In this document: positions 2,376 to 39,523 of the stretch, one piece after another
Layout: the number at the start of each line of letters is the position of its first letter
Numbering within the stretch: the stretch's first letter is position 1
NCBI GenBank assembly: GCA_903937035.1
Contig: CAIZXS010000025.1
Location: 1 to 39,878, forward strand
From: an uncultured bacterium
Lineage (GTDB): Bacteria > Patescibacteriota > Minisyncoccia > Moranbacterales > UBA2206
Direction of reading: 5' to 3'
Length of the DNA: 39,878 nt
The notes under the pieces: model-generated
The model's database searches: none
The model's input: only the letters and a program-made list of their open reading frames with translations
What the model was told of the DNA's origin: nothing
Translations under genes and position numbers: made by a program

Positions 2376-3710
2376 TTACAAAGAAGCCCGACCAATTGAG
2401 TGATATTCAAACCCAAGTTCCTTCATTTTTTTTGGTTCATAGAGCAGTCGTCCATCGAAAACCACAGCTTGCTTTAGACGTTTTTTGATTTCATCAAAAT
2501 CAACACTTCTAAATTCTTTCCATTCCGTGATGACTAGTAGTGCATCAGCGTGATCAAGCGCGTCATATTTACTTTCGAAATAAGTGATGCTCGCATTGTC
2601 ACCAAAATATGCCGGGGTCTTGGCCATTGCCATTGCCTCCGGATCATGGGCTTGAATTTTCGCTCCGAGACTAATGAGCTTATTGATGATTGTTATAGCG
2701 GCAGATTCGCGCATATCATCCGTTCCCGCCTTGAAAGCCAATCCCCAAACAGAAAAAATCTTGCCCTTCAAGTCCTGCCCAAATTTATCCACAATCATAT
2801 TACTGAGGACTTGTTTTTGCTTTTCATTTGTTGCAAGAGTCTGTTTGAACATCTCGGCGTCATAGCCATGATCTTTAGCAATTTTGACCAAGGCTTTCAC
2901 ATCTTTCGGAAAGCAACTACCGCCAAAACCTGGTCCGGCATAGATAAAATGTTCACCGATTCTTGGATCTGCGCCAATCGCTTGTCTAACATGATTAAAA
3001 TCAGCTCCGACACGCGAGCAGATATTAGCGAGTTCACTGCTAGTAGAAATTTTGACCGCCAAAAAACTATTTGCCGCATATTTAACCGTCTCAGCTGTTT
3101 TTGGATCCATGGCGAAAAATCGACTTTCTCTGCGCATAAATGGTCCATATAGTTCGCGCATCGTTTCGATTACTGCCGGATCATCTGCTCCAATGACCAC
3201 TCGGCTTGGATCCATAAAATCTTTAACAGCTGAACCCTGAGCAAGAAATTCCGGATTACTCACAACATGAAAAGGGATATCGGAACCACGCTTTTTTTGC
3301 TCCTCGGCAATCGTTGCTCGAACCAACTCAGCCGTACCAACCGGCACAGTAGATTTGTCAACTACAATTAACGGGTGATCAATCATTTGACCGATTGAAC
3401 GAGCAACATCGAGAACATGACTGAGATCCGCGCTACCATCTTCATTGGGCGGTGTTCCAACAGCGATAAACAAAATATTACTCGCTTTCAAGGCTTCTTC
3501 GAAATTAGTTGTGAAGCGCAAGGTTTTCGCTTTCAAGTTTTCTTCCACCAACTCATCGAGATCGTCTTCGTGCAATGGCACCTTGCCAGAACTAAACAAA
3601 TCGATTTTCTTTTGATCCTTGTCTACGCAAATAACTGTGTTGCCCATTTCGGCAAAACATGCCCCAGTAACTGAACCAACATAACCCGTTCCAATGACTG
3701 CAATCTTCAT
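2376..3710 (-). CDS. ugd: UDP-glucose 6-dehydrogenase
   Basis: A 444-residue, full-length member of the UDP-glucose/GDP-mannose dehydrogenase family. It oxidises UDP-glucose to UDP-glucuronate with 2 NAD+. The Rossmann motif GTGYVG is at 7-12, SNPEFLAQGSAVKDF at 151-165, and the active-site loop GFGGSCFPKD has its nucleophile at C266. The C-terminal UDP-binding domain follows. A UDP-glucuronate decarboxylase at 26829-27770 gives a plausible route UDP-Glc to UDP-GlcA to UDP-Xyl within the same glycan region. Immediately upstream, a repeat-bounded four-helix-bundle gene separates it from the next glycosyltransferase, apparently as an insertion. Confidence 0.96.
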   Translation of the reverse strand: MKIAVIGTGYVGSVTGACFAEMGNTVICVDKDQKKIDLFSSGKVPLHEDDLDELVEENLKAKTLRFTTNFEEALKASNILFIAVGTPPNEDGSADLSHVLDVARSIGQMIDHPLIVVDKSTVPVGTAELVRATIAEEQKKRGSDIPFHVVSNPEFLAQGSAVKDFMDPSRVVIGADDPAVIETMRELYGPFMRRESRFFAMDPKTAETVKYAANSFLAVKISTSSELANICSRVGADFNHVRQAIGADPRIGEHFIYAGPGFGGSCFPKDVKALVKIAKDHGYDAEMFKQTLATNEKQKQVLSNMIVDKFGQDLKGKIFSVWGLAFKAGTDDMRESAAITIINKLISLGAKIQAHDPEAMAMAKTPAYFGDNASITYFESKYDALDHADALLVITEWKEFRSVDFDEIKKRLKQAVVFDGRLLYEPKKMKELGFEYHSIGRASL

Positions 3711-3716
3711 AATATT

Positions 3717-3741
3717 TCATGAAACATGAAGCATGTAACAT
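3717..3741. repeat. Heptamer-based repeat, outer end of the four-helix-bundle element
   Basis: A run of degenerate CATGAAA/CATGAAG/CATGTAA heptamers beginning 7 bp from the ugd start codon. Reverse-complement units occur at 4114-4142, bracketing the four-helix-bundle gene as an inverted pair. The sequence matches 39425-39455 closely, including the trailing ACAATAA. Confidence 0.75.
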
Positions 3742-3755
3742 ACAACAATAATCTT

Positions 3756-4127
3756 TTAGACTTTTTCCTTTATGCCTTTAATTGTTGTCCATAACATAGC
3801 TCCTATTTCTTCAGCTAGATTAATTAGTTTTTTATAATTATCCTCTTTTATATAACCCTCTCTTTCTGAAAAATATAACAAATATTTAGCTTCTTTTAGC
3901 GACCCATACGACATCTGCAAAAAATACTTCAACTGATTGTCACCTAGTCTTGCATAACCTTCGATATAATTAAGAACGATAGATAGGGCGGCTCTGCGCA
4001 ATTGCGACGTAATCCCATATATCTCCTCCCTCGGAAACTCCTTTGAAGTCTTGTATACCTGATATGCAAAATCGTCTAATTTTTGTTTGAATAATTTGTG
4101 AAAATTTCCCCCTGTTTCATGTTTCAT
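3756..4127 (-). CDS. Four-helix-bundle protein (S23/IVS family)
   Basis: A 123-residue protein of the four-helix-bundle family (TIGR02436, S23 type), first described from intervening sequences in 23S rRNA genes and related in fold to Avd of diversity-generating retroelements. The family pattern FxxKLDDFAYQVYKTSKEFP, then YGITSQLRRAALSIVLNYIEGYAR, is clear at about residues 14-62. Biochemical function is unknown for most members; nucleic-acid binding is suspected. The first codons (MKHETG) are encoded by a heptamer repeat, and a matching inverted repeat lies downstream at 3717-3741. The insert separates two glycan genes, so it looks like a small mobile or domesticated unit. No reverse transcriptase or variable repeat is present. 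Confidence 0.88.
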   Translation of the reverse strand: MKHETGGNFHKLFKQKLDDFAYQVYKTSKEFPREEIYGITSQLRRAALSIVLNYIEGYARLGDNQLKYFLQMSYGSLKEAKYLLYFSEREGYIKEDNYKKLINLAEEIGAMLWTTIKGIKEKV

Positions 4128-4142
4128 GCTACATGCTTCATG
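4114..4142. repeat. Heptamer-based repeat, inner end of the four-helix-bundle element
   Basis: Inverted counterpart of 3717-3741. It contains both the start codon of the four-helix-bundle gene (4125-4127) and the TGA stop of the upstream GT2 gene (4138-4140), so the insertion boundary falls exactly at the gene end. Confidence 0.75.
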
Positions 4143-5076
4143 ACTCTATTATTTCCTTGATCGAATAATTCATGTGTCCTTGGCTTTTGTAGTAGTTCTT
4201 AATGAGAATGTCAGCTAAAAGTCCGAAAATAAATAACTGGATGCCGATAAGAATCAAAAATATTCCCATCAAGGGCCAAATCTTTTCGGAAAGTGAAGCG
4301 TTAAAAAATATTTTTTCAATCGCCATCCAAATTAAAATCAAAACTCCCACAAAAGATAACACTATCCCACTACCGCCAAAAAGGTGCAACGGACGGTTGG
4401 CATATTTTCGCCAAAACCAGATCGAAACCATATCAACAAAACCCTTCACTCCCCGCCTCCAGTTATATTTCGTTACCCCGTGGACGCGTGGATGATGGCT
4501 AACTTTCACTTCTCCAACTTTAAAACCCTGCATTTCCAAAATGGCAGGAATGAAGCGATGCATTTCACCGAAAAGATCAACCCCCACAAAACATTCCCTC
4601 CTATAGGCCTTGAGACTGCAACCAGAGTCATGAATCTTATCTTGAATCAAAATCTTTCGCAGCATATTCGCACCACGAGAAAAGATTTTTTTGCTCAATG
4701 GATCTTTCCTTTGCCAACGCCAACCAGCAACAACATCATAACCCTTCTTCATTTCCTCTAGGAGTAGCCCGATATCCGCCGGATCATTTTGCAAATCACC
4801 GTCTATCATTACAATGATATCCCCATGAGAAGCTTTGATGCCAGCATCAAACCCAGCTGTTTGTCCAAAATTTTTGCGGAAATTAATCAAGCGCAGTGGT
4901 GAAAGACCCTGGCACTCCTGGGCTGTCTTATCCTTCGATCCATCATTGATGAAAATAATTTCAAAACTTTTTCCCAAATCCTGGCAAGCCTCCTTGATTC
5001 TCCTGTGCATTTCAATAACATTACCCTCTTCATTGTATAGAGATGTAATAACTGACAAATCAACTTTTTCTTCCAT
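4138..5076 (-). CDS. Polyprenyl-phosphate sugar synthase-like GT2 (DPM1/GtrB/ArnC type)
   Basis: A 312-residue GT-A inverting glycosyltransferase with two C-terminal membrane helices (about 232-254 and 266-290), the architecture of GtrB/ArnC/DPM1-like enzymes that move a nucleotide sugar onto undecaprenyl phosphate. Visible motifs are VITSLYNEEGN (9-19), FINDGSKD (42-49), the DGD metal-binding motif at 93-95, and later amphipathic segments. The product would be a lipid-linked monosaccharide used outside the cell by GT-C enzymes, which fits the YfhO/AftD-like membrane proteins just upstream. Its stop codon lies inside the heptamer repeat. Which sugar is used is unknown. Confidence 0.88.
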   Translation of the reverse strand: MEEKVDLSVITSLYNEEGNVIEMHRRIKEACQDLGKSFEIIFINDGSKDKTAQECQGLSPLRLINFRKNFGQTAGFDAGIKASHGDIIVMIDGDLQNDPADIGLLLEEMKKGYDVVAGWRWQRKDPLSKKIFSRGANMLRKILIQDKIHDSGCSLKAYRRECFVGVDLFGEMHRFIPAILEMQGFKVGEVKVSHHPRVHGVTKYNWRRGVKGFVDMVSIWFWRKYANRPLHLFGGSGIVLSFVGVLILIWMAIEKIFFNASLSEKIWPLMGIFLILIGIQLFIFGLLADILIKNYYKSQGHMNYSIKEIIES

Positions 5077-31316: not shown

Positions 31317-31874
31317 TTAGGCTACCTTTAGTTTTGACCTAGAATGCACAAAAATTCGCAATTTTTCCATATCTTTTTCTATAACAGCTATTCTTTTGGA
31401 AAATGACTTAGTTTCTTTGGAGGAAAGTATTTTTTCACTGAGTCGAGCTAGCTCAAATTTAATTTCTTTTAATTCTTTTTCCATTACCTCAAATCTTTCA
31501 TCAGTACAAAAAAGATGATCCAGCGTTATTTTCTGATTAGCTTCAACTTTTTCAAATCTAGCATTAATTTGTTTAAATCTAGCATCAACTTGTTCAAATC
31601 TAGCATCAACCTGTTCGAATCTAGTATCAATTTGTTCAAATCTGGCATCAACTTGTTCGAATCTGGCATCAACTTGTTCGAATCTAGCATTAGTTTCTGC
31701 GCGAAAAGAATACACTTCATCAGTCAAACCATCAAGTTGTCTTTGGACTCCCATCACGCCTTCGGCCACTACCCTGATTCCGTCTTCCATTCTTTCCAAA
31801 ATTGCCATGACTTCACTCTCAGCAAAAACTTTTTTCACCTCTTTATCTTTTGAAATTATTTTTAATTTTTTCAT
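31317..31874 (-). CDS. Heptad-repeat coiled-coil protein
   Basis: A 185-residue cytoplasmic protein with no signal peptide. Its centre (about residues 61-109) is seven copies of a seven-residue unit close to ARFEQVD, with Phe and Val three apart, an ideal a/d coiled-coil heptad. The flanking regions (DGIRVVAEGVMGVQRQLDGL and ELKEIKFELARLSEKI) are also heptad-like. The architecture recalls Bdr-like or small hypothetical coiled-coil proteins whose repeat number varies; function is unknown. A strong promoter with a palindrome over its -35 box lies upstream, suggesting regulation. The unit number may change by slippage of the underlying 21-bp repeats. Confidence 0.85.
   Translation of the reverse strand: MKKLKIISKDKEVKKVFAESEVMAILERMEDGIRVVAEGVMGVQRQLDGLTDEVYSFRAETNARFEQVDARFEQVDARFEQIDTRFEQVDARFEQVDARFKQINARFEKVEANQKITLDHLFCTDERFEVMEKELKEIKFELARLSEKILSSKETKSFSKRIAVIEKDMEKLRIFVHSRSKLKVA
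31548..31694. repeat. Seven tandem 21-bp units
   Basis: Seven units of consensus TTGTTCAAATCTAGCATCAAC with a few substitutions each, in frame with the coiled-coil gene. There is no spacer, so it is not a CRISPR array. Confidence 0.92.
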
Positions 31875-38720: not shown

Positions 38721-39414
38721 TCCCCATCTTTTCAAAATTTTTCGAAATTTTGCTCTGTATCTTCTCCAAATCAATCTTTTTGCCTTTTGTTTTTAGCTTT
38801 AGCTTCTTATCCAAAATCACGTCTTCGCGATATTCTTGCAGATAATAGGCCTTTGCTCCGGCTATCCACTTGGCAATTTCCAAAAAGTCTTTTTCTTCAT
38901 GAATTCCCGGCACTACAGTTGTGCGGAACTCATAGTTCACTCTACTATTACGAATGAGATCGACACTTAGGCGTATTCGCTCAGTATCCACTTTCACCCC
39001 AACAGTTTTACTATAGTTTTTTAGTTGATTTTTTATGTCCATTGCCACAAAATCCAACAGCTTTAAATCCAACAATTTTTTCAAGATATCCGGCCGAGCG
39101 CCGTTTGTATCCAACTTTATCAAAAATCCCATTGCGCGCACTTTTTTAATAAAATCAATGAGGTCCGGCTGCAATGTAGGTTCGCCACCAGTAATGCAAA
39201 CACCAGCTAATTTTCCTTTTCTTTTATTGAGGAAAGCAAAAAATTCTTGTTCGGTCTTATTTTGGGTCCCTGAAGCAATTTGACCAGCGCCCAAAACAAG
39301 TTCCGGATTATGGCAAAATGGGCAACGAAAATTACAACCGACTGTGAAAACAGTAGTCGCCAGAGTCCCGGGAAAATCAATCAGAGTTAATTTTTGGTAG
39401 CCACCGATGTTCAT
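38710..39414 (-). CDS. nrdG: Anaerobic ribonucleotide reductase activating protein (NrdG-type radical SAM)
   Basis: A protein of 235 residues from the ATG at 39414. It uses SAM and a 4Fe-4S cluster to create the glycyl radical on class III ribonucleotide reductase. The cluster motif CNFRCPFC is at 27-34 (C27, C31, C34), preceded by the family opening MNIGGYQKLTLIDFPG, with ITGGEPTLQPDL for SAM binding and KLDTNGARP later. An in-frame start further upstream (39468) would add 18 residues encoded by heptamer repeats, so it is rejected. Upstream is a small protein carrying just the glycyl-radical loop. It probably supports dNTP synthesis without oxygen. Confidence 0.92.
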   Translation of the reverse strand: MNIGGYQKLTLIDFPGTLATTVFTVGCNFRCPFCHNPELVLGAGQIASGTQNKTEQEFFAFLNKRKGKLAGVCITGGEPTLQPDLIDFIKKVRAMGFLIKLDTNGARPDILKKLLDLKLLDFVAMDIKNQLKNYSKTVGVKVDTERIRLSVDLIRNSRVNYEFRTTVVPGIHEEKDFLEIAKWIAGAKAYYLQEYREDVILDKKLKLKTKGKKIDLEKIQSKISKNFEKMGIRR

Positions 39415-39523
39415 GCAATATGTAGCATGAAACATGAAACATGTAGCATAAAACAATAAAGCAGGCACTCCTGATTAGCTCTGCATTGCATGTTATATGT
39501 TACGTGTTATATGTTACATGTAT
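39412..39523. repeat. Heptamer-based inverted repeat without a gene
   Basis: The left run of CATGAAA/CATGTAG-like heptamers (39412-39450) is matched in inverse by 39488-39523 (GTTATATGTTACGTG-type units). Only about 37 bp lie between. The left run, including the trailing ACAATAA, matches 3720-3751, so this looks like an empty or nonautonomous version of the four-helix-bundle element. It begins at the nrdG start codon. Confidence 0.65.

Follow-up and report, generated by a model that had tools for sequence, protein, structure and literature searches.

An S23-family gene between inverted heptamer arrays as a likely copy of a mobile element in a Patescibacteriota genome

The stretch of DNA considered here, hereafter the window, comprises 39,878 nucleotides from an uncultured Patescibacteriota bacterium of the order Moranbacterales (contig CAIZXS010000025.1 of assembly GCA_903937035.1). 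On its reverse strand, downstream of a GT2 glycosyltransferase gene (4138..5076; PF00535, 97 bits) and upstream of a nucleotide-sugar dehydrogenase gene, ugd (2376..3710; TIGR03026, 447 bits), lies a gene of the S23 or 23S-rRNA-IVP family (3756..4127), which encodes a four-helix bundle of 123 amino acids and scores 99.0 bits against PF05635 (cut-off 33.8) and 100.3 bits against TIGR02436 (cut-off 24). Both sides of this gene carry an array of four heptamers, which is evident from the sequence, detected by TRF and supported by pattern counts. The inner, upstream array (4115..4142, reverse strand, read from 4142 down to 4115) consists of CATGAAG CATGTAG CATGAAA CATGAAA, while the outer, downstream array (3718..3745, forward strand) is inverted relative to it and consists of CATGAAA CATGAAG CATGTAA CATACAA, the last unit being degenerate. 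According to the sequence and its open reading frames, the S23 start codon (ATG, 4125..4127, reverse strand) is embedded in the third heptamer of the inner array, and the stop codon of the GT2 gene (TGA, 4138..4140, reverse strand) in the first. As such, two claims of the first-pass annotation held, namely that inverted, degenerate CATGAAA-type heptamers surround the S23 gene, and that the inner array provides both its start codon and the GT2 stop codon.

A second pair of arrays is present at the other end of the window, in front of nrdG2, where a left array (39412..39455, forward strand; TRF and pattern count) and a right, inverted array (39489..39521, reverse strand; TRF and hairpin prediction) enclose no S23 gene and are predicted to form a hairpin (MFE -39.6, z -5.5). 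Heptamer arrays of this type occur far above chance: the pattern CATGN3CATGN3CATG, allowing at most one mismatch, has nine matches in the window vs 0.10 expected, and none out of 100 shuffles reaches nine. As a single word, CATGAAA is not enriched in the window (16 found vs 15.5 expected). The window has no Rfam match at the gathering threshold. Like the S23 open reading frames of 23S rRNA intervening sequences (IVSs), the window S23 gene sits within complementary termini; being located between GT2 and ugd, and not inside a 23S rRNA gene, the element is ruled out as a 23S rRNA IVS by position.

The AlphaFold2 model of the window S23 protein (pLDDT 93.5) is closest in structure to 2gsc (TM 0.86, rmsd 0.8 Å), and a second comparison returned the 2gsc/2rld fold with a Z of 19.2 and an rmsd of 2.8 Å over 116 aligned residues. 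The ranking of folds is 2gsc, 2rld, and then Avd of diversity-generating retroelements (DGRs) (8ub7_E; Z 15.3, rmsd 1.7 Å, 107 aligned). A Xanthomonas relative of S23 is known to be a homopentamer (PMC4990558). Among 142 distinct S23 proteins, Q42, N53, E56 and E79 are invariant (142/142), and R45, S49 and S76 are conserved in 138, 138 and 137, respectively, this polar set being located on helices 2 and 3. Since such conservation exceeds what a plain four-helix scaffold would be expected to need, it can be inferred that S23 possibly has an active site or binding surface. Avd, which is essential for retrohoming according to a review (PMC10053308), has the same fold as S23 (PDB 4dwl, 8ub7). However, the window S23 scores only 29.5 bits on the NCBIfam Avd model, of which the cut-off is 80, the window contains no reverse transcriptase, and the only reverse transcriptase match of the source genome lies on another contig. 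We therefore rejected the identification of the window S23 as a DGR Avd.

Arrays turned out to be the rule around S23 genes of the same order. This sample comprised 101 S23 loci from 56 genomes (the 30 best loci, 65 other matches, and six at or beside the ugd/GT2 site). A period of 7, scored at 16/21 or higher, was found upstream in 41/101 and downstream in 44/100 of these loci, vs one each in shuffled sequences, and the same measure reached 1/29 and 0/29 in the flanks of Y1-transposase genes. Smaller excesses exist at periods 8 and 9, and at 14, which is a multiple of 7, and there is none at periods 4-6 or 10-13. When upstream arrays were compared with their own inverted downstream array, 80 of 100 loci exceeded the 95th percentile of pairs drawn from different loci, leaving 20 of the 100 CPR loci under this threshold; in a control region 250-370 bases off, the inverted match occurred in 0/96. 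Where both arrays are clear, unit length is equal on the two sides in 68/76 loci, with mostly four to five copies.

Furthermore, the repeat unit (7, 8 or 9 bases long) follows the S23 subfamily: the similarity of repeats correlates with protein distance at r = -0.50, computed over 4944 between-genome pairs (reached by 0/1000 permutations), and distant S23 subfamilies that share one genome have unrelated repeats. The arrays thus travel with the S23 gene, and each S23 subfamily has a repeat of its own. That each S23 specifically recognizes its repeat is an inference, and it is possible that the pairing of subfamily and repeat stems from shared descent instead of binding.

The architecture of array, S23 gene and inverted array also occurs in other phyla, in viral contigs and in cyanobacterial plasmids. 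From 184 relatives, 80 named loci were retained and scored, and the flanks of 36 were also read by eye. Inverted matches were found in 32 of 44 named non-CPR loci, 20 of 36 named CPR loci, and 12 of 18 viral-contig loci, the other six of the latter being under the threshold. The record titles of the named loci include Bacteroidota, Dehalococcoidia, Omnitrophota, Verrucomicrobia, Acidobacteria, Nitrospirales, Sedimentisphaerales and one cyanobacterium. It should be noted that in the non-CPR set the upstream control region itself reaches the period-7 threshold in 7/42 cases, perhaps via near-duplicate Flavobacterium loci. Plasmids yielded 31 records with matches to S23. Flanks were taken from ten loci, nine cyanobacterial and one of Riemerella, all of which carry strong arrays, seven on both sides and three on one. 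S23 genes of Nostocales plasmids, for instance, are framed by arrays of heptamers such as GGGAACA and GGGAGTA. One cyanobacterial genome was not used, as the GGGAACA pattern gave 33 matches vs 175 for the reversed-pattern control, apparently because another heptamer family resembles the control. A tblastn search of INPHARED phage records with one S23 query gave no match.

Within the source genome (1.22 Mb, 26 contigs), which has a single PF05635 gene, the arrays are widely dispersed. The oriented array pattern, allowing up to two mismatches, has 112 matches, and the reversed-pattern control has none. Clustering of 100 of these matches, minus three that fell ambiguously on both strands, yields at least 38 arrays. 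Neighbouring arrays on opposite strands and no more than 450 bp apart are convergent in 11/11 cases, only one such pair containing S23. Eight gene-less pairs are predicted as hairpins (z -3.6 to -7.3 relative to mono-nucleotide shuffles), and the pairing of arrays into long hairpins rests on this modelling only. One of these eight pairs is located inside the 16S rRNA gene of the source genome (L002 1435-1530; G000:C3 about 2440-2540), a gene that is otherwise complete (RF00177, 1426 bits, model 1-1533). Gene-less inverted array pairs are thus scattered throughout this genome, 16S rRNA included. As their interiors vary in sequence, gene-less elements are not simple copies of each other. By eye, single heptamer arrays also seem to be read in frame within two coding genes, an mnmA-like frame (L014; G000:C17:13769) and a peptidase-U32-like frame (L012; G000:C12:81044).

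Across genomes, five with a close cognate S23 (at least 70% identity) have 66, 41, 87, 11 and 29 arrays, vs a median of one in the other 48 (p = 6e-4). Six genomes without a close cognate S23 nevertheless have 23-129 arrays (e.g. 129 in G032, 47 in G019 and 39 in G005), and as such, array dispersal and the S23 gene are not strictly linked.

Could the arrays be simple repeats grown by slippage, or sites of a host regulator, to which S23 is linked merely by chance or by shared intergenic space? In favor of this explanation, heptamer arrays are known, slippage having been discussed for those of Xanthomonas and Nostoc (PMC4692102) and a regulator for those of Beggiatoaceae (PMC4679880). Moreover, 200 viral-contig loci with TAACTGA or GGGAATC arrays, scanned out of 240, contain no S23 gene, although the repeats were described from other genomes. 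However, slippage does not produce an inverted partner, yet 80 of the 100 loci have one; opposite-strand neighbours in the source genome are convergent in all 11 cases, and the repeat follows the S23 subfamily across genomes. We consider this explanation very unlikely.

The ugd|GT2 junction is readable, with both genes on one contig, in 32 relatives. S23 is present in only six of these (four CATGAAA-type and two AAGTT-type, which are two unrelated subtypes), and in nine the junction is without insert and merely 5-34 bases long. Four genomes (G012, G015, G019 and G023) instead carry gene-less inverted arrays of other repeats (p 0.005 each). The inverted signals of G013 and G033 come from a plain palindrome and from AT-rich DNA, respectively, and at the remaining junctions the signal is absent, single or unclear. 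Gene-less arrays of an ATTCGTA repeat were seen at the junction of G016, G028, G031 and G032 (L092, L093, L096 and L098). The assembly of the close relative G002 breaks exactly at this junction (ends of G002:C79 and C98), as would be expected if a repeat-bearing element were present there. Among the four CATGAAA-type genomes, third-codon identity is higher for S23 (53-61%) than for GT2 (43-50%) in all six pairs. The nearest empty relatives of the window site are too diverged to read exact element ends or a target duplication.

Exact ends can be read in cyanobacterial plasmids. Site T of Nostocales plasmids, the flanks of which are about 98% identical, is filled in Trichormus and Scytonema and empty in Nostoc linckia and Microchaete: the empty site reads AAAGTAATTAAC, and the filled site AAAGTAAT-element-GTAATTAAC, with GTAAT doubled. 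By eye, this site of the Nostoc C052 plasmid seems to be occupied by the decayed remains of an S23 element (L580). Site O1 is filled in pNsp_a and pNPM1 and lacks the element in C057, pNsp_c and C052_B, with TTCTA doubled. At both sites the stop codon of the upstream gene overlaps the duplicated bases or abuts them; the two belong to the same S23 subfamily. Site N is filled in two records, empty in two, and occupied in Nostoc ATCC 53789 by an inverted array without a gene (L584). At site P, S23 lies between cas10 and cmr3 in Picosynechococcus PCC 7003 and is absent in PCC 7002, and at site R it lies antisense between nrdB and nrdA in Nostoc edaphicum and is absent in Calothrix. A clean 5-base duplication was not readable at sites N, P, R, C and O2. 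Sites that otherwise match thus differ in whether they contain the unit of arrays and S23, and two of the plasmid sites show a 5-base target duplication. The target-site duplication expected of a DNA transposon or MITE is read at these two sites only, and it is unreadable at the window site. Some of the empty sites may have come from precise excision, but insertion is favored, since several empty records have a lone copy of the duplicated bases. The first-pass annotation had proposed the precise insertion of a mobile unit, and this is largely supported, the best evidence being that of the plasmids. Neither of the observations it had named as refuting came true: the gene is not conserved at this site in all relatives, and arrays are not absent around other S23 genes.

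CRISPR operons also harbor S23 genes, in one case between cas10 and cmr3 and in another between cas6 and cas4 (L575 1504-1860; L576 1495-1863), and the 23S rRNA IVP is listed among domains in a figure legend of PMC10910872. It is possible that insertion, and not function, explains such links.

These sites bear on a second rival explanation, in which S23 is a vertically inherited operon gene and the arrays are RNA-processing, terminator or translation-coupling signals for its mRNA. Using the longest open frame as a proxy, same-strand neighbours are found upstream in 90/93 and downstream in 84/87 CPR S23 loci, and where both neighbours are readable, S23 is co-directional with both in 77/80. This is what an operon gene would predict, as are the location of stop and start codons in the repeats and the hairpins that the arrays are predicted to form. 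Conversely, S23 occupies the ugd|GT2 junction in a small minority of relatives, as two unrelated subtypes, its third-codon identity exceeds that of GT2 in every pair, the unit is present or absent with 5-base duplications, and arrays are dispersed without the gene. The antisense copy between nrdB and nrdA further argues against it, and shows that the co-orientation of S23 with its neighbours is not absolute. We therefore regard the operon-gene explanation as very improbable; the co-orientation fits selection inside operons, or entry that is linked to transcription.

A third alternative is that a known enzyme acts in trans, either a Y1 transposase of the IS200/RAYT type or the reverse transcriptase of a DGR or group II intron, with S23 as passenger or accessory. 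Dispersed inverted units look like REPINs, and the S23 element shares with REPIN/RAYT systems and MITEs a gene framed by inverted repeats, along with many gene-less inverted units. The fold is that of Avd, which is part of a reverse-transcriptase complex, and across 53 genomes RVT_1 is present in 31 and Y1_Tnp in 33. However, the ends of the S23 element are tandem arrays, and no Y1 transposase exists in the element or in the source genome (0 matches to PF01797). For reverse transcriptase, the source genome has one partial RVT_1 match only (G000:C20:71229-71525). G021 has eight S23 genes and neither enzyme, while G005, G014, G030 and G038 have S23 and no RVT_1. Since the source genome (its partial RVT_1 match aside) and G021 possess S23 without them, Y1 transposase and reverse transcriptase do not seem to be needed now. 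As such, an obligate reverse transcriptase was rejected as a present-day need, and REPIN/RAYT was rejected for the source genome, the flanks of the 29 Y1 genes of relatives being without period-7 arrays as well. Overall, a known enzyme in trans appears unlikely. It remains possible that such enzymes acted in the past or were lost, and DDE enzymes were outside these searches. The earlier statement that no transposase is recognizable therefore holds for the element, and for the genome it covers Y1 (none) and reverse transcriptase (the partial match) only.

In our preferred reading, the window likely holds one full copy of a mobile element, in which a short tandem repeat array, an S23 gene and the same array inverted follow one another. 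Its movement has not been observed, its mobilizing enzyme is unidentified, and a role for S23 in driving insertion is inferred. An S23 pentamer, an oligomeric state taken from the solved relative, would bind the repeats of its own element, either single-stranded or folded into a hairpin, with about one repeat per subunit. It would escort the element, in RNA or ssDNA form, to its next site, at which an enzyme of the host or one acting in trans, unidentified so far, would make a staggered cut. Insertion would occur between genes of an operon, in many cases at a stop codon, and the stop and start codons that lie in the repeats would then keep the operon translated and S23 expressed. Within rRNA, by analogy with known IVSs, the hairpin would be excised by RNase III, an excision that is likewise inferred. 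The match between pentamer and repeats is a hypothesis, deduced from the copy number of the arrays and the oligomer of the solved relative.

Among known systems, 23S rRNA IVSs with an S23p open reading frame, such as those of Coxiella and Leptospira, are similar in that stem-forming terminal inverted repeats enclose the S23 gene. In the Coxiella 23S IVS, tandem GACAGAT heptamers are found just ahead of the S23 start codon (PMC4990558). These heptamers, together with the gene-less pair inside the 16S rRNA of the source genome, link the S23 element to rRNA IVSs. Unlike an IVS, the window element resides in a protein operon, both of its arrays are tandem heptamers, and gene-less copies are numerous. 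It therefore resembles a selfish element of the IVS kind, the termini of which are cognate tandem repeats and the sole gene of which encodes an Avd-like protein, and the copy in the window belongs to a widespread class. Heptamer arrays such as the STRR-type of cyanobacteria (PMC4692102, PMC4679880) are likewise dispersed and intergenic, and similar arrays, which may be of the STRR type (a match by name, without sequence comparison), frame the S23 genes of Nostocales plasmids. These two papers are not known to tie their repeats to an S23 gene, and in the open-access literature searched, subscription papers and bioRxiv being outside its scope, we found no link of S23 genes in general to inverted heptamer arrays.

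A bolder reading, possible only and to be taken as one joint claim, is that S23 elements make up a class of mobile DNA that is categorically new and spread across many phyla, with a four-helix-bundle pentamer of about 120 amino acids, lacking a known recombinase domain, as its sole protein; that each subfamily reads its own 7-, 8- or 9-base repeat, with the invariant polar set as active site or nucleic-acid grip; and that rRNA IVSs, along with many ‘simple’ heptamer arrays including the cyanobacterial STRR-type, are its products. Three old puzzles converge here: the function of S23p, the entry of IVSs into rRNA genes, and the heptamer arrays that litter genomes. If S23 elements indeed have the arrays as their cognate ends, a single system would suffice to test all three. 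The paired series of proteins and repeats, with units of 7, 8 and 9 bases, would also provide a ready data set for a recognition code.

Elsewhere, the window also carries a 21-base tandem repeat of 7.3 copies (31538-31690), located within an open reading frame (31317-31874), where it encodes a heptad-like ARFEQVD repeat.
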